Made by a program: the position numbers and the translations under genes
Shown here: piece by piece, positions 4,228 to 18,697 of the stretch
How the letters are laid out: each line of letters opens with the position of its first letter
Numbering within the stretch: position 1 is the first letter of the stretch
NCBI GenBank assembly: GCA_002701365.1
Contig: NZUK01000002.1
Location: 1-46,194, forward strand
Length of the DNA: 46,194 nucleotides
Direction of reading: 5' to 3'
From: Flavobacteriales bacterium
GTDB lineage: Bacteria; Bacteroidota; Bacteroidia; Flavobacteriales; TMED113
Notes under the pieces: model-generated
What the model was told of the DNA's origin: nothing
Database searches by the model: none
What the model saw: the letters and a program-made list of their open reading frames with translations, nothing else

Positions 4228-5664
4228 ATGATAGAACGTAAATACCGACTGAAGAGAACAAAAATTGTAGGTACAATTGGACCAGCTTCTCAAGCCAAAA
4301 AGAAAATAAAAAAAATGATTCAGGCAGGTCTAAATGTCTGTAGAATAAATTTTTCACATTCGAACCATGAAGATGCTCTAAAAATTATTAAAACTGTTCG
4401 GGAATTAAATACCGAACTTCCATCTCATGTAGCAATCATGGGAGATTTAAGAGGACCCAAGTTAAGAATTGGAACCGCCTGTGAAAATACAGAATTAATT
4501 AAAGGCAATTTAATTGCTGTGATGGGGGAGTCTGGTGACTCTAATCAAAGTAATATATTTGTTAACTACCCCGAGATTATTAACGATGTACGATTGGGTG
4601 AAAAAATACTTATTGATGATGGTAAAATTGTATTACGAATAATTAACACTGAAAGTTCGAAAGTAATGTGCGAAGTTTTACAGGGTGGAATTTTACTTTC
4701 AAACAAGGGTGTAAACCTCCCAAATACAAAAATATCTTTGCCTACAATTACCCAAAAAGATAAGCAAGACCTGTTGTTTTGTATTGAAAATAATATCGAA
4801 TGGGTCGCGCTATCCTTTGTAAGAAGTGGTTCAGATATAATAAGTTTAAAAAACTTAATTCGAGATAATAATGGTAAGTGTAGAGTTATAGCCAAAATAG
4901 AAAAGCCCGAAGCTATTAAAAATTTAAACTCAATTGTTAAAAATTCAGATGCCTTAATGGTCGCGAGGGGTGACTTAGGTGTTGAACTGCCTACACAAAA
5001 AGTTCCTGTTTTACAAAAAAAAATTGTTCGAACAGCAAGAAGAAATGCTAAACCCGTAATTATTGCAACACAGGTTATGGATAGTATGACATCTAGCTTG
5101 TTACCAACTCGAGCTGAAACAAATGATGCGGCAAATGCAGTTTTTGATGGGGCAGATGCACTAATGCTATCCGGAGAAACATCTGTTGGAAAATACCCAA
5201 CAAGAGTTGTTCGAACTATCTCTAAAATTATTTTAGATGTTGAGGCGTCGGATGAAAAAAAAGATTTAAAAAAATTATTGCCTCGTAAATCTAATAAAAG
5301 ATACATTTCTGATTGTATTTGTTACCAAGCTTCTGAAATTGCAAATCAAGTTGAGGCTAAAGCTATATTGGCATTTACAGCCTCTGGATACAATGCTCAA
5401 AAAGTTTCATCTAATCGTTCCAATGCGCATATTTGCGTGTTTACACATAACCGACAGATACTAAATACTCTTAGCCTTGTTTGGGGTGTAATTGGTTTTT
5501 ATTACAATAACTTAGAAAGTACCGATAATACAATAAAAGAAACTCAATTAATATTGCAAAATGAAAAAATTATAAAAACCGGTGACTTTGTAATAAATAT
5601 AGCAAGTGTTCCTATAAAAGAAACGGGCATGACTAATATGATGAAACTTGCAAAAATTAATTAA
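4228..5664 (+). CDS. pyk: pyruvate kinase
   Basis: This 478-residue glycolytic enzyme makes pyruvate and ATP from phosphoenolpyruvate and ADP. The start (TKIVGTIGPAS, then RINFSHS) and the metal/substrate region MVARGDLGVELP are canonical. So is the helix IATQVMDSM...PTRAETNDAANAVFDGADALMLSGET. The B domain spans roughly residues 75-170, and the C-terminal allosteric domain starts near 360. Length is typical. Its last 8 bases (TTAATTAA) overlap the end of convergent pheS. Confidence 0.98.
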   Translation: MIERKYRLKRTKIVGTIGPASQAKKKIKKMIQAGLNVCRINFSHSNHEDALKIIKTVRELNTELPSHVAIMGDLRGPKLRIGTACENTELIKGNLIAVMGESGDSNQSNIFVNYPEIINDVRLGEKILIDDGKIVLRIINTESSKVMCEVLQGGILLSNKGVNLPNTKISLPTITQKDKQDLLFCIENNIEWVALSFVRSGSDIISLKNLIRDNNGKCRVIAKIEKPEAIKNLNSIVKNSDALMVARGDLGVELPTQKVPVLQKKIVRTARRNAKPVIIATQVMDSMTSSLLPTRAETNDAANAVFDGADALMLSGETSVGKYPTRVVRTISKIILDVEASDEKKDLKKLLPRKSNKRYISDCICYQASEIANQVEAKAILAFTASGYNAQKVSSNRSNAHICVFTHNRQILNTLSLVWGVIGFYYNNLESTDNTIKETQLILQNEKIIKTGDFVINIASVPIKETGMTNMMKLAKIN

Positions 5665-6670
5665 CTTGAAATTGTTTCAGAAATCTTAAGTCGTTTTCAA
5701 AAAACAACCTTAAATCATCAATTTGATGTAATAACATCGTTATTCTCTCGATGCCCATCCCAAATGCAAAGCCAGAAAATTTAGTGGGATCAATATTTGC
5801 ATTTTCAAGAACATTAGGATCAACCATGCCACAGCCCATAATTTCTAACCAACCTGTTCCTTTGGTTATGCGGTAATCTGTTTCTGTCTTTAACCCCCAA
5901 TAAATATCTACTTCTGCGCTTGGCTCAGTAAATGGGAAAAAAGACGGTCTAAACCTAGTTTTAACCTCTTTCCCAAATATACTTTCCACAAAGTATGCAA
6001 TCATTTTCTTTAAATCTGAAAAACTAACATCTTTGTCAATATATAAGCCTTCTATTTGGTGAAAAATACAATGTGCTCTTGATGAAATATCTTCCTTTCT
6101 GTAAACTCTTCCAGGAGATATAATTCTAATTGGTGGAGTGTTCTCTTTCATGTATCTTATTTGAACTGAGGAAGTGTGTGTTCGCAACAATACATCTGGA
6201 TCTATTTTAATAAAAAATGTATCCTGCATATCTCTTGCAGGATGATCCTTTGGCATGTTTAAGGCTGAAAAATTATGCCAATCATCTTCTATTTCTGGAC
6301 CCTCTGAAAGGCCAAACCCCACTTTTTTAAAAACACTAATAATTTGATCTTGTACTTTCGTAAGTGGATGTGTTGCCCCAACTTGATCATAGATAGCGGG
6401 CATTGTTAAATCAATTTTGGATTGTTCTTTTTTCGTGTTTTCTGATTTTTGCAGACTTTTCAATTTACCCAAGGCCATAACCTTAAGTTGATTTAATAAT
6501 TTTCCAACTTCTTTTTTTTCAGAATTTGGTAAAGCCTTAAATTCATTAAAAAGATCGTTTAAAATTCCCTTTTTACTTAAATACACTTTTTGAAAATTTA
6601 TAGCATCTTCATTACTATGAATAATAGTATTATTTACATCATTTATTGTTTTATTTAATTTTTCCTGCAT
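5657..6670 (-). CDS. pheS: phenylalanine-tRNA ligase alpha subunit
   Basis: The 337-residue class II synthetase subunit contains the catalytic core that joins phenylalanine to tRNA-Phe with PheT. The N-terminal coiled-coil region (about residues 1-90) binds tRNA. Motif 2 is seen around ISPGRVYRKEDISSRAHCIFHQIEG, the FPFTEPSAEVDI segment is present, and motif 3 is GFAFGMGIERITMLLHQIDDLR. Length and C-terminus are typical. pheT is not in the window. The ATG start lies 23 bases downstream of a TAnnTTTG box. Confidence 0.98.
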   Translation of the reverse strand: MQEKLNKTINDVNNTIIHSNEDAINFQKVYLSKKGILNDLFNEFKALPNSEKKEVGKLLNQLKVMALGKLKSLQKSENTKKEQSKIDLTMPAIYDQVGATHPLTKVQDQIISVFKKVGFGLSEGPEIEDDWHNFSALNMPKDHPARDMQDTFFIKIDPDVLLRTHTSSVQIRYMKENTPPIRIISPGRVYRKEDISSRAHCIFHQIEGLYIDKDVSFSDLKKMIAYFVESIFGKEVKTRFRPSFFPFTEPSAEVDIYWGLKTETDYRITKGTGWLEIMGCGMVDPNVLENANIDPTKFSGFAFGMGIERITMLLHQIDDLRLFFENDLRFLKQFQVN

Positions 6671-14038: not shown

Positions 14039-14797
14039 ATGAAAATTATTTCCTATAATATAAATGGTATTCGTGCAGCTATGCGAAAAGGATTAATTAA
14101 TTGGCTAAAATCATATAGTCCGGATGTAGTCTGTTTTCAGGAAATTAAAGCCAATCATGACCAGTTTGATGTATCTGAGTTTGAACAATTGGGTTATAAT
14201 TGCTACTGGCACTCTGCACAAAAAAAGGGTTATAGCGGTGTTGCAATACTATCTAAAATTAAGCCCAATAATATTATTTATGGCTGTGGCGTTGAAAAAT
14301 TTGATTGTGAAGGAAGAGTTATAACTGCAGAATTTAATAACATTAGTGTTTTGTCTTGCTACTTTCCTTCCGGTACAAGTGGCCAAGAACGACAAGCTTT
14401 TAAAATAGAATTTTTAAATTTCTTTTATAAATTTATTGAAGCACAAAAAAACACTAGACATTTGCTGGTTTGTGGAGATTATAATATCTGTCACAAAGCT
14501 ATTGATATACATAATCCTATTAGAAATAAAAACACGTCTGGATTTCTTCCGGAGGAAAGAAATTGGATCACCAATTTTTTAAATTTAGGATTTGTCGACA
14601 CTTTCCGAATATTAAACCCTCAGCCACATTATTATTCTTGGTGGAGCTATCGTGCACAATCAAGAAAAAACAACAAAGGTTGGAGAATTGACTATCATAT
14701 GTTAAGCGAAGATATAAAACAAAATATTAAAAAAGCTGATATATTAAGCGAAGTCTACCACTCTGATCATTGTCCGATTTTATTAGAGATATATTAA
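14039..14797 (+). CDS. xth: exodeoxyribonuclease III / AP endonuclease
   Basis: The 252-residue enzyme belongs to the exonuclease-endonuclease-phosphatase family and cleaves DNA at abasic sites in base excision repair. Visible active-site parts are Asn7 in YNINGIRAA, Glu35 in CFQEIKA, Asp and Asn in CGDYNICH, and the terminal SDHCPI with its Asp-His pair. Length is typical. Its stop shares a TTAA with the convergent collagen-like gene. Confidence 0.95.
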   Translation: MKIISYNINGIRAAMRKGLINWLKSYSPDVVCFQEIKANHDQFDVSEFEQLGYNCYWHSAQKKGYSGVAILSKIKPNNIIYGCGVEKFDCEGRVITAEFNNISVLSCYFPSGTSGQERQAFKIEFLNFFYKFIEAQKNTRHLLVCGDYNICHKAIDIHNPIRNKNTSGFLPEERNWITNFLNLGFVDTFRILNPQPHYYSWWSYRAQSRKNNKGWRIDYHMLSEDIKQNIKKADILSEVYHSDHCPILLEIY

Positions 14798-15813
14798 GGA
14801 CATGGAACTTCTTCCCCCAGGCTTAGAACCATAGATAAATTAAAACTCAACTGAACAGCATAACATGTTCCTGTTCCGTCGTCAATAGTTAAATTGTTCA
14901 AATTAAAGTGAGTAGGAGTCTCTCCTTGTTCACCAACTAAATTATTTAAAAAATCTTGTTCTGATCCGGTGTTTCCTTCGTTTAGCCAAATTTCATATGC
15001 GCTCATGCCAGTCATCCCTGTTTGTCCGGGAGGTCCTTGCTGTAAAAAGGTGAAAAAATCATTGATGGTTCCTGGATTGCCATCAAGGTCTCCGTCACTT
15101 GAATTATTACCCTGATTTAACCAAAACTGATACGTATTTTGACCTAGCATAAATTCATCTATCGTACCCCCTTCATTGTCTGGTATTCCATCTGCATTGC
15201 TATCAATTGTTAACCAAACTTCATATGCGCTCATGCCGGGAGCACCATCTTCCCCGTCTTCCCCGTCTTCCCCGTCTTCCCCGGGTATGCCTTGTATCCC
15301 CGATGGGCCTGTGTTTCCTTGAGGACCCATAGGGCCTGTGGGACCTGAAGGACCCATTTCACCTGGCAAGCCTTGCGGGCCTGGATTTCCCGGATTTTCA
15401 CTAGACTCGGCAAATAATGCATATGGGACACTTCTAAGCTGCGTTGACCCAATAATTAAGTAGTCAGTTTCTGAATTTGATGATGATGTTTCTGCAATTC
15501 CTATAGTCAAAAAGTGAGTATGATTACCCCAATCTATATCTGAAAAACTAGATGTCGGTGTTGGTTGTCCTCCGCCAATAGCTAAATTTACAAGACCTAT
15601 GGCGTTCGTTGTAACAGAAAAATGTTCTTCCCTGTAAACTGGAAAATTATCAGGGCTATCGGCAGATATACTTGCTGAAATATTAATTGTTTCATTAACT
15701 CGGGGTTGCCAGTTAGCGTCTCTTATGACTGTCTGGTAAGAAAATGTGTGTGGAGCCTGTGCTTCACAAAGTAATGTTAAGAACATTAAACAAACGCTAA
15801 ATATATTTTTCAT
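14794..15813 (-). CDS. secreted collagen-like surface protein
   Basis: The 339-residue protein has a signal peptide ending near LLCEAQA. Residues ~20-135 form the N-terminal beta domain common in Bacteroidota surface proteins (FSYQTVIRDANWQPRVNETI ... STQLRSVPYALFAES). A collagen-like Gly-X-Y stretch follows (about 140-193), then three related units starting SAYEVWL, NTYQFWL and SAYEIWL. The last of these, GNTGSEQDFLNNLVG, resembles repeats in phage-tail-like and bacterial adhesin proteins. A surface fibre or adhesin role is inferred; no enzymatic motif is seen. It starts 1 base after the stop of the T9SS protein gene upstream. Confidence 0.8.
   Translation of the reverse strand: MKNIFSVCLMFLTLLCEAQAPHTFSYQTVIRDANWQPRVNETINISASISADSPDNFPVYREEHFSVTTNAIGLVNLAIGGGQPTPTSSFSDIDWGNHTHFLTIGIAETSSSNSETDYLIIGSTQLRSVPYALFAESSENPGNPGPQGLPGEMGPSGPTGPMGPQGNTGPSGIQGIPGEDGEDGEDGEDGAPGMSAYEVWLTIDSNADGIPDNEGGTIDEFMLGQNTYQFWLNQGNNSSDGDLDGNPGTINDFFTFLQQGPPGQTGMTGMSAYEIWLNEGNTGSEQDFLNNLVGEQGETPTHFNLNNLTIDDGTGTCYAVQLSFNLSMVLSLGEEVPCP
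15251..15286 (-). repeat. 9-bp tandem repeat coding Gly-Glu-Asp
   Basis: Three perfect copies of the 9-base unit tccccgtct (15251-15277) are flanked by two degenerate ones. On the minus strand they encode the Gly-Glu-Asp triplets of the collagen-like region. In-frame slippage would lengthen or shorten the Gly-X-Y rod without breaking the frame. Confidence 0.85.
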
Positions 15814-15814
15814 A

Positions 15815-16309
15815 TTAATTGAGTTTTTGTATTTGATAAACTTGTTTTTGATTGTTAGTTATTAAAATCTCTAAAAAATAAACCCCTGATGTTAAGTTTT
15901 TTAAGTCAAGAGAGTAATTATTATTGATTTTTATATTAACCTGACTATAAACAACACTCCCCTTTATATCTTTTAGATTTATATCTACATCATTATTTAA
16001 ATCACTATTAATGTATAAAATATCCGGACTGGGATTGGGATAAATCATTATTTTATAATTGTCTATAGCTGGAATCAATGTTGTTATTTGGTAATTGCTT
16101 TCTTGGTGAAAGCCTTGCGTGAGAATAATATCTTGTGGTGTATGTGTATCTATTGCTATTTCTCCAACAGAAAAACATAAATTATAATTATCCGTGATCC
16201 ATTCGCCACCTGAGTTAGAAATTAAAAACGGGCTATTAATAATATCTGTTTGCGCACAAATCATTTGCGAAAAAATTAAAACTATAGTTAATACCCTCAT
16301 AAAAATCAT
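15815..16309 (-). CDS. small T9SS-sorted secreted protein
   Basis: The 164-residue protein has a signal peptide (ending near MICAQ), a short domain with the pattern GGEWITDNYNLCFSVGEIAI ... LTQGFHQES, and a type A T9SS sorting domain from about residue 90 (IMIYPNPSPDILYI ... LTSGVYFLEI). Proteins of this pattern often stand beside collagen-like surface proteins in Bacteroidota, as here. Their function is not known to me. The ATG at 16309 overlaps the upstream TGA stop as ATGA, which supports this start and suggests translational coupling. Confidence 0.82.
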   Translation of the reverse strand: MIFMRVLTIVLIFSQMICAQTDIINSPFLISNSGGEWITDNYNLCFSVGEIAIDTHTPQDIILTQGFHQESNYQITTLIPAIDNYKIMIYPNPSPDILYINSDLNNDVDINLKDIKGSVVYSQVNIKINNNYSLDLKNLTSGVYFLEILITNNQKQVYQIQKLN

Positions 16310-17925
16310 TCCTTAATAAAACTCTTTGTCAACAATCCGGCCTCTGATTGTATATTAACAAAATATGTGCCTGGTGACAACGAAGAAATATCTAATTTAA
16401 CACTATTTGCTTCTGATTGAAAATTTTCATTCAAAATTATATCAATAATCCTTCCTTTACTATCATATAATTTTACATTTAAATTATTTTGATCTTTATG
16501 GGCATAGCTTATCTCTATTTGATCCTGTGCAGGATTTGGGAATATGTCAAAAAGCGGGTTTGTGTTCTCTAAAATGCTGGTTGTTTGCTCAATCCCTAAA
16601 TAAATGTTTTCATCCCCCTCTTGATAAGGTACATAGTAAATAGGGCAAAAAAACATTTCATCCGTTGTCAACTCCCCCCATCCCATATTAAAATCATTAG
16701 TATTGTCATATGTTGCAATAGCTTCAATTCGTGAGCCCGCTGGAATATGCTGCATGTATTCTGGGTAATAAAAGCCCTGCCAATCAAAATCCCAATTTGG
16801 TATTTTAATAATAGGCAGCGTCTCTCCGACTGGAGTTTCAGCATAAACTTCCCAAGATTTTCCCATTAAGTGAGAGTGAGGCAAAATTCCTAAAAGACTC
16901 CAATCTTCTGGTACTTCACAGTTCTGCTCCCCATAAAAACCTGTTGGTTGTCCAAATTGATAAATTTCTCCCGGACCATATAAGTCCGCAAATGACCCTG
17001 AGAAATTTAAACACGCCTCGATCTGTGTCTCCGTATTTGCCGGAATTTCTATATCTAATCTAAGCCACATTTTCATTTGAACTTCTCTCTCAACTTCAGA
17101 CGCTGGTTTTGTGAAAATATTTATTGATGACCTGTCCCATTCATTCACAGACGATGGGGCATAATGAATCTGACACAATAGGTCCGCGCCAGCTGGTATT
17201 TTCATGCCCAATTCACCATTCCAAACCACAGGATTCATTCCAGGAGCATACCCTCCTAAAAAAACATAATCATTTGGGCTTACACCCTCAAGATTAAAAC
17301 CTCCAAAAGCTTCATAGCCCAAAACGTCTGGTGATTCTGCATCTTGCTGCGCTCCAGTTCCCGTAACGTCTACCATCATAAGAGCATGGTGAACAGCCTC
17401 TCTGTTGTCAGGTCTAAATTCAATTGCCTTAATATAAGTGTCCTCTGTAAATCCCGTGGGAAATACAAATACTCTATAATCATCCTGGTTATTGCCTTCA
17501 ATAAAATACTCTTCTTCTAGTTGAAAAACAAAGTCCGGCTCTCCTATTGCAGAACCCTCTGTAAAAATAGGCATTTCCGATTCTAATTCTGGATCTCCCT
17601 CTGGAAGACCTTGTGAAACCCATTCGCCTATTAAGTTCTTTTCATTTTCTGTTAAAAACCTCTCGTCAAGCATGGAGTGAGAAGTATAGCCTGGATCTGG
17701 TGGCCATGGTGGCATGTAGTCATTTTGTGTAACATACTCTATCATCGAGCCCAAAGATGCAACCTCTTCATAAGATGTGAAGCTCATGGGGCCTGACTCG
17801 CCTAAACGATGACAAGATGTGCATTTGTTATATATAATTGGTGATATATCTTTTGTAAAAGTGACTTCGTTAGACTGACTAAAAACATAGCCACTTATTA
17901 AAATTAAAAAAATAAAAAATCTCAT
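16306..17925 (-). CDS. haem c / copper type II monooxygenase-like protein, T9SS-sorted
   Basis: This 539-residue exported protein has a signal peptide (to about residue 16), a c-type haem site CTSCH (Cys35, Cys38, His39) in a cytochrome-like N-terminal domain, and a core resembling copper type II ascorbate-dependent monooxygenases. Candidate copper ligands are His179-His180 and His254 (CuA-like) and His350-x-His352 plus Met424 in TTDEMFF (CuB-like), matching the peptidylglycine monooxygenase pattern. A type A T9SS sorting domain (FPNPAQDQIEI to SPGTYFVNI) occupies residues 460-539. The substrate is unknown. The gene before it encodes a thioredoxin-fold lipoprotein. Confidence 0.82.
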   Translation of the reverse strand: MRFFIFLILISGYVFSQSNEVTFTKDISPIIYNKCTSCHRLGESGPMSFTSYEEVASLGSMIEYVTQNDYMPPWPPDPGYTSHSMLDERFLTENEKNLIGEWVSQGLPEGDPELESEMPIFTEGSAIGEPDFVFQLEEEYFIEGNNQDDYRVFVFPTGFTEDTYIKAIEFRPDNREAVHHALMMVDVTGTGAQQDAESPDVLGYEAFGGFNLEGVSPNDYVFLGGYAPGMNPVVWNGELGMKIPAGADLLCQIHYAPSSVNEWDRSSINIFTKPASEVEREVQMKMWLRLDIEIPANTETQIEACLNFSGSFADLYGPGEIYQFGQPTGFYGEQNCEVPEDWSLLGILPHSHLMGKSWEVYAETPVGETLPIIKIPNWDFDWQGFYYPEYMQHIPAGSRIEAIATYDNTNDFNMGWGELTTDEMFFCPIYYVPYQEGDENIYLGIEQTTSILENTNPLFDIFPNPAQDQIEISYAHKDQNNLNVKLYDSKGRIIDIILNENFQSEANSVKLDISSLSPGTYFVNIQSEAGLLTKSFIKE

Positions 17926-17936
17926 AATATTGTTCT

Positions 17937-18563
17937 TTAGTAATTAATAACACACCCTACTGCTGTAGTCTCTAACAAATTTATACTTTCTCCATCAACA
18001 ATTTGGTGTAAAACGTTTATTAAATAATGTTCTGTTGGCGAACTCCATTGTCCAAGCTGCTGATAACTGTTATCAATCATGCCTCTATATACTAGCTCAT
18101 TATTCGTCTCAACAAATACTTCGGGGGTAACAACTGGTTGATAATACTGAGTATATGAGCCGTGCTGATTATTAATATGATTATAGTCCAAGCTCACATT
18201 AAACGGGATGTCATATTTATTCATAAATTGAATTAAACTTTCCTCTGTTGAAAAAGAGTTGGGCGAAAAACCTCTAAATAAAATACTTTGATTTAACGTG
18301 TCACAAAAGTACCTGCTTGCCTCTCGAAGCGGACCACACATGTACTGAGCAATAGGGCAGTTCTCGTAAAGAAACACTGTAACGACGGCTAAGTTTGACG
18401 TTGGCTTTCCACAATGCAGTTCACAGTCTGAAATGGTTGCAAATGATCCATTAGAATCTTCAACACATCCACCAATATCTCCCAAGCAGATAAAACTGTT
18501 TGCTTTTTCTTTTTCACAACCAAGTGAAAAAAATAACATTAATAAAATTGATAAGCGCATCAT
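17937..18563 (-). CDS. thioredoxin-fold (redoxin-like) lipoprotein
   Basis: With the ATG at 18563 the protein has 208 residues. A lipoprotein signal ends in the lipobox FSLGC. A small Cys-containing segment follows, then a thioredoxin-like domain: VTVFLYENCPIAQYMCGPLREASRYF (CPIAQYMC carries the candidate redox Cys), the cis-Pro segment VVTPEVFVE, and YRGMIDNSYQQLG. It ends TTAVGCVI, a tail I associate with redoxins found beside or fused to haem/copper monooxygenases. The open frame continues to a TTG at 18623, but that would nearly reach tRNA-Thr, so an ATG at 18563 or 18560 is preferred. Confidence 0.75.
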   Translation of the reverse strand: MMRLSILLMLFFSLGCEKEKANSFICLGDIGGCVEDSNGSFATISDCELHCGKPTSNLAVVTVFLYENCPIAQYMCGPLREASRYFCDTLNQSILFRGFSPNSFSTEESLIQFMNKYDIPFNVSLDYNHINNQHGSYTQYYQPVVTPEVFVETNNELVYRGMIDNSYQQLGQWSSPTEHYLINVLHQIVDGESINLLETTAVGCVINY

Positions 18564-18578: not shown

Positions 18579-18625
18579 GTAAATTATTGGGGCTTGAGGG
18601 GGGCTTGGAAAAAGTAATGGCAACG

Positions 18626-18697
<72 letters not shown>

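Follow-up and report, generated by a model that had tools for sequence, protein, structure and literature searches.

A PHM-like copper protein with a cytochrome c-type segment and a thioredoxin-like lipoprotein head a conserved four-gene unit in a Flavobacteriales bacterium

Introduction

What does a thioredoxin-like lipoprotein (hereafter redoxin) do beside a copper protein of the PHM type that seems to carry its own haem and to be marked for export through T9SS? The question is raised by a 46,194-nt stretch of contig NZUK01000002.1 from a marine Flavobacteriales bacterium (hereafter the window), in which an original prediction described two adjoining genes as an envelope redox pair, one product lipidated and the other sent through T9SS, of a kind often fused in other phyla. 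PHM and DBH are known from animals, where they use ascorbate in making hormones and transmitters, PHM being the one that amidates neuropeptides. In the open-licence PMC literature, with subscription papers mostly outside the scope of the search, we found no account of bacterial systems that combine cytochrome c, PHM and a redoxin.

Results

The pair heads a four-gene unit

Four genes run head to tail on the minus strand of the window from 18563 down to 14794; the first two are 11 nt apart, the next two overlap by 4 nt and the last two are 1 nt apart. The redoxin gene (17937–18563) starts with an ATG at 18563 and encodes 208 aa, the ORF listing having a longer TTG-start form to 18623, and the PHM gene (16306–17925) encodes 539 aa. 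The third gene, TAIL (15815–16309), overlaps the PHM stop and encodes a small T9SS-tailed protein of 164 aa with an SVGE...LTQGFHQ segment. The fourth, COL (14794–15813), encodes a collagen-like (GXY) protein of 339 aa, the sole PF01391 match in the source genome. The N-terminal domain of COL is of the FSYQTVIRD type. A tRNA-Thr gene (18625–18697) lies immediately upstream of the redoxin gene, and the divergent gene upstream of the unit is presumably RNase R, judging by its sequence.

The source genome (G000; 1.55 Mb in 39 contigs) was compared with the other members of its taxonomic family, 12 genomes in all (hereafter the host family); among the matches listed, the closest named contigs were Flavobacteriales MAGs. 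The order redoxin-PHM-TAIL-COL is found in 8/12 host-family genomes. Thus, the redoxin-PHM pair is the head of a conserved four-gene unit, which is a new finding.

The PHM-like protein has a PHM/DBH fold and a complete set of copper ligands

The AlphaFold model of the 539-aa protein (pLDDT 90.6, pTM 0.88) was compared with the PDB using Foldseek, and the top 31 matches were all PHM or DBH (best 1.9e-13). The VIA Z score to rat PHM (3mic) was 22.6, with 258 residues aligned at 2.8 A, of which about 16% are identical. Z scores ranged from 18.7 to 22.6 for PHM/DBH as against at most 8.5 for PNGases and viral capsid proteins, and the double jelly roll is common to all of these according to PMC8812541. 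A profile search of PDB sequences found a single protein, human DBH (E 1.5e-10), with HH, HY and HxH in register. The Pfam profile Cu2_monoox_C gave 19.1–21.6 bits on the window protein alone, below the cut-off of 23, and matched 73/87 relatives at E<=0.01.

The proposed copper ligands were followed through 87 aligned cores, the set that remained when 135 candidate cores were thinned at 78% identity. The CuH ligands would be His179-His180 (17386–17391, minus strand, as are all features below), aligned to HH of human DBH, and His254 (17164–17166), aligned to VHY. The CuM ligands would be His350 and His352 (H350-S-H352; 16870–16878), aligned to HTH, and Met424 in a DEM motif (16654–16656), which lies within the structural alignment to PHM. 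All six are present in 87/87 diverse relatives and in 18/18 family members, and five of the six are also in register with DBH in the profile search. Only 18 columns of the 87-core alignment are invariant, and the six ligands are among them, as is Met71 (see below). From the fold and the ligands together, it is very probable that the protein belongs to the PHM/DBH-type class of copper enzymes; it is a putative hydroxylase.

Rat PHM R240, N316 and Y318, which we take to be the residues that bind the peptide carboxylate, have no counterparts in the window protein at the positions compared (H350-2, M424+2 and M424+4, placed by motif spacing), where L348, F426 and P428 stand. Since these residues lack counterparts, the protein should not be counted strictly as a peptidylglycine enzyme.

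A cytochrome c-type segment and a T9SS sorting tail flank the PHM core

The N-terminal 100 residues of the PHM protein fall outside most structural matches. This segment contains a c-haem attachment site, C35xxC38H39 (17809–17823), kept in 86/86 rows that reach the region, and Met71 in a YMPPW motif (17713–17715), kept in 87/87 and probably the distal haem ligand. Together with the matches of Cytochrome_CBB3 to 45/87 relatives at E<=0.01, these features identify it as a predicted cytochrome c-type domain. At the other end lies a type A T9SS C-terminal sorting domain (16318–16545; PF18962, TIGR04183). Por_Secre_tail scores 61.4 bits against a cut-off of 27, and TIGR04183 scores 49.7 against 23. 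Among PHM relatives, PF18962 matches 59/61 long tails at E<=0.01. By its profile matches, the PHM protein is marked for export to the cell surface through T9SS.

The neighbor is a redoxin of the 2cvb/2ywi/3u5r family

In the redoxin, the lipid Cys16 is followed by a short four-Cys insert and then by the thioredoxin fold. The redoxin alone had no match in Pfam or NCBIfam, including AhpC-TSA, which matches 46/55 of its relatives at E<=0.01. The model (pLDDT 93.8) gave VIA Z of 17.8–18.2 to 2cvb/2ywo, 2ywi and 3u5r, aligned through the extreme C-terminus, as against 11–12 to ResA-like/CcmG-type proteins, where the alignment ends before the GCxI tail; ResA, CcmG and Sco are all among its fold neighbors. 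A profile search found the Cys-Pro nucleophile and the GCxI tail to be common to the redoxin and 2cvb, 2ywi and 3u5r. The two cysteines concerned, both invariant in 55/55 relatives, are the active-site Cys69 (18357–18359; ENCPIA here, CPxC in most relatives) and Cys204 (17952–17954; AVGCVI), aligned to GC of 2cvb, 2ywi and 3u5r. The 55-relative profile and the predicted fold place the 208-aa protein in this family of thioredoxin-like proteins.

Two familiar assignments were rejected. A classical thioredoxin/TlpA oxidoreductase would have CxxC, where the window has CPIA with an extra Cys at +7 (ENCPIAQYMC). A peroxiredoxin (AhpC/TSA) has the motif PxxxTxxC, where the window reads VFLYENC. The Cys/His set of the Sco copper site was likewise not seen among the invariant columns of the 55-row redoxin alignment.

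At the level of the single proteins, the original prediction holds up well. C35-T-S-C38-H39, H179-H180, H254, H350-S-H352 and M424 all lie where it had placed them; one c-haem site, a PHM-type copper protein, a T9SS sorting tail (both profile scores being above cut-off) and a redoxin-type lipoprotein as neighbor are all borne out. It had also proposed structure prediction as a check on both copper sites, to be refuted by ligands that do not converge; the predicted PHM fold was recovered, and the refuting case was answered only indirectly, by the fold match and total conservation.

The lipid anchor carries an acidic tag in the host family

The lipoprotein signal peptide of the redoxin (18501–18563), read from the sequence, ends at Cys16 with the tag EKEKA at +2 to +6. 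Acidic residues at these positions form the lipoprotein export signal that marks surface lipoproteins in Bacteroidetes, according to PMC5080379. EKEKA has two acidic residues and departs from the K-(D/E)2 motif in its strict C. canimorsus form. At least two acidic residues were found in 8/8 redoxins of PHM-containing host-family units vs. 1/17 in a comparison set of redoxins adjoining PHMs that are themselves lipoproteins (Fisher 8e-6), and in 9/10 host-family redoxins once PHM-less loci were added (Fisher 2e-5), although these values are not independent and reflect few events because the ten tags come from one clade. The exceptions are L138 (CSEEQ) among the 17 and G007 (VNDFN), with one acidic residue, among the 10. 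Among background lipoproteins, picked by eye from 30 regex matches, 1/14 had at least two acidic residues. Base composition is an unlikely cause of the tag, since the same ten genomes supply 4/17 comparison tags. The lipid Cys was set by eye for the window (Cys16), L029 (CDSDV) and L138, and the lipobox of the L035 PHM likewise; the 17 exclude L082, L094, L114, L165, L166, L167, L169 and L176, which are tail-less with a PHM not called a lipoprotein.

We read the acidic tag as likely surface exposure of the host-family redoxin. Outside the host family, redoxins beside T9SS-tailed PHMs are mostly soluble or unsigned by sequence, without a lipobox, and would sit across the membrane from the exported PHM; a periplasmic role therefore fits better there. 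The proposed division, one partner lipidated and the other exported through T9SS, thus stands by sequence at the window and does not extend to most T9SS-tailed pairs beyond the host family.

Pairing is recurrent and fusion is rare

A PHM-like protein occurs in 12/12 host-family genomes, in 49/196 genomes of the order (E<=1e-10), in 25/394 of the phylum (E<=1e-30) and in 17/99 genomes of a second phylum-level sample, centered on G551 of the Acidobacteriota. The relatives on named contigs are the best 80 of 527 confirmed (79 loci), and so this set leans to close relatives. Pairing was counted over 142 distinct PHM genes, mainly from Bacteroidota, whose cores reach 300 aa or more. A redoxin gene lies on the same strand no more than 300 nt away for 65 of them and within 6 kb for 6, and is fused in 3; none was found nearby for the other 68, a figure that is an upper bound because many loci had flanks of only 1.5 kb. 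Across Bacteroidota, pairs also occur without TAIL or COL.

Split genes are the usual state in the Acidobacteriota-centered sample as well, with 1 fusion in 34 loci, and no redoxin was seen in the long N-terminal stretches of L202, L211 and L212. Fusion as the usual state is thus rejected for what was sampled (3/142 and 1/34), where phyla with divergent proteins are under-sampled since both samples used the profile of one Bacteroidota family. Split pairs are found in both large clades of the PHM tree (quick search, SH-aLRT only). The fused L036/L037 are placed, with full support, among split pairs from their own family, and in 3/4 such loci the redoxin and PHM frames overlap, so that a split pair was probably the origin of this fusion.

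The source genome holds a second split pair on contig 24 (L035), with PHM at 4697–6052 and redoxin at 6031–6603, both apparently lipoproteins. Their frames overlap by ~22 nt; the cysteine motif of this redoxin reads CPLC, and its tag is non-acidic.

The redoxin outlasts the PHM in two genomes

In G007 (L218, 3036–5198) and G004 (L220, 6393–8401), redoxin, TAIL and COL stand in order, the PHM gene is gone and both redox cysteines of the redoxin are kept. A tblastn search of the PHM protein on L218 and L220 recovered only the sorting domain of the TAIL gene. G005, of the same genus as G004, keeps the PHM gene, with near-identical AAAACACWTATG starts on both of its borders, through which the gene could easily be lost cleanly. 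G007 retains two other PHM genes and G004, which is 62% complete, retains a fused one. In G002 the contig ends within the unit, whereas all that G003 shows is a distant COL relative. COL-like matches occur in 12/12 host-family genomes, with PHM adjoining or not; together with the pairs elsewhere that stand without TAIL and COL, this led us to reject a collagen-specific link of the pair.

Since an intact redoxin remains after PHM loss, it may serve several PHMs or another client; the redoxin is not tied solely to the window-type PHM. Of the original account of the locus, recurrent pairing is well supported (65/142), while the two-gene module overlooked the TAIL and COL genes of the unit, the account missed the second split pair of the source genome, a strict pair is weakened by G007 and G004, and frequent fusion in other phyla was not supported by the counts in our samples.

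Discussion

Taking the evidence together, we tentatively favor, as the best overall explanation, that the redoxin is the PHM's working partner on the same outer-membrane face. In this scheme, a copper hydroxylase of the PHM/DBH fold would leave through T9SS to the cell surface, its N-terminal cytochrome c domain would pass single electrons to CuH and onward to CuM, and O2 would be activated at CuM. Such an enzyme would have no need for ascorbate because its own cytochrome c domain would supply the electrons. The redoxin, via Cys69 and Cys204, would supply reducing equivalents or keep the metal sites reduced and loaded. It would also serve paralogous PHMs, which would explain its survival after loss of the window-type PHM. 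Weighing against the scheme are the PHM-less units of G007 and G004, the mostly unlipidated redoxins beside T9SS-tailed PHMs outside the host family, and the 68/142 PHM genes for which no redoxin was found nearby.

A possible, if rather doubtful, alternative is that the redoxin acts in the periplasm as a factor for PHM maturation, reducing cysteines or apo-copper sites or delivering copper before export, and not a catalytic electron donor. Attachment of c-haem is periplasmic (cytochrome c biogenesis), so cofactors should precede export, and ResA, CcmG and Sco are among the fold neighbors. In T9SS-tailed pairs outside the host family, moreover, the redoxin lacks a sorting tail and has a lipobox only in L156, probably inside the signal peptide. 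Against this, redoxin and enzyme stay permanently joined in the natural fusions (3/142), the lipid tag of the host family suggests a surface location (9/10) and no Sco-like Cys/His set was seen among the invariant columns.

We consider it unlikely that the host-family redoxin is part of a surface unit with TAIL and COL, or serves several clients, with the PHM as an optional passenger. The PHM-less loci of G007 and G004, with order and redox cysteines intact, and the presence of COL-like genes in every host-family genome are what such a unit would leave, but redoxin-PHM pairs occur across Bacteroidota without TAIL or COL, and both genomes still have other PHMs, fused in the 62% complete G004.

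Least plausible among the rivals is a PHM-like domain that binds copper without hydroxylating, as a copper/redox binding protein or in other O2 or peroxide chemistry: the peptide-binding residues of PHM are absent and the double jelly roll also serves PNGase-type hydrolases, but an electron donor in the form of a built-in haem is in keeping with an oxygenase, and conserved two-copper chemistry is favored because the six catalytic ligands are kept in 87/87.

A more far-reaching reading, to which we give very little credence, is that a surface PHM, haem-wired, ascorbate-free and fed by a surface redoxin lipoprotein, hydroxylates the surface proteins encoded with it, either COL or TAIL (the SVGE/T9SS protein). 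If true, hydroxylation of COL or TAIL would be a copper-based counterpart of animal collagen hydroxylation.

Comparison with known systems

Rat PHM (1sdw, 3mic) has the same double jelly roll and the same pattern of CuH (HH, H) and CuM (HxH, M) ligands. Unlike it, the window protein has a built-in cytochrome c, a T9SS tail and a bacterial host, with L and F at the positions of R240 and N316. DBH (4zel) has the same fold, and its HH, HY and HxH columns align; however, the haem domain of the window protein stands where DBH has its N-terminal domain, which we take to be DOMON, and nothing points to a catechol substrate. For the redoxin, 2cvb/2ywo (Thermus), 2ywi (Geobacillus) and 3u5r (Sinorhizobium) share the fold through the C-terminal tail, and their PDB titles name no specific function; the window protein differs in being lipid-anchored, in its four-Cys insert before the domain and in pairing with a PHM gene. 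The ResA/CcmG-type thiol-disulphide oxidoreductases share the thioredoxin fold and an extracytoplasmic location, whereas the redoxin has CPIA in place of CxxC and a GCxI tail beyond the alignment.

A large bacterial branch of haem-PHM, redoxin and T9SS would show two-copper chemistry running without ascorbate. Bacteria with haem-PHM proteins also offer simple organisms in which to ask what PHM/DBH-type enzymes first acted on.

Other arrangements of PHM genes

A third PHM type, with no redoxin nearby, is found on contig 35 of the source genome (L034, 4752–7094) and in host-family relatives; it has a Cys/Asp-rich C-terminal extension of 200–550 aa, with a DDG...KKI-type end in several. In the Acidobacteriota-centered sample, G551, G561, G629 and G641 have large expansions of haem-PHM paralogues, the highest count in one genome of the sample being 13 matches at E<=1e-40, and several of the proteins in this sample have C-terminal TPR-like repeats; by eye, L197, L198 and L215 end in long stretches that resemble TPRs. 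One redoxin gene lies between two PHM genes in L068, L069, L070, L073, L074, L075, L081 and L083, the first PHM ending in a dockerin-like repeat and the second in a T9SS-like tail. In L060, L061, L064, L067 and L086, mostly Neomarinimicrobiota MAGs, a dockerin-like tail replaces the T9SS domain of the PHM.
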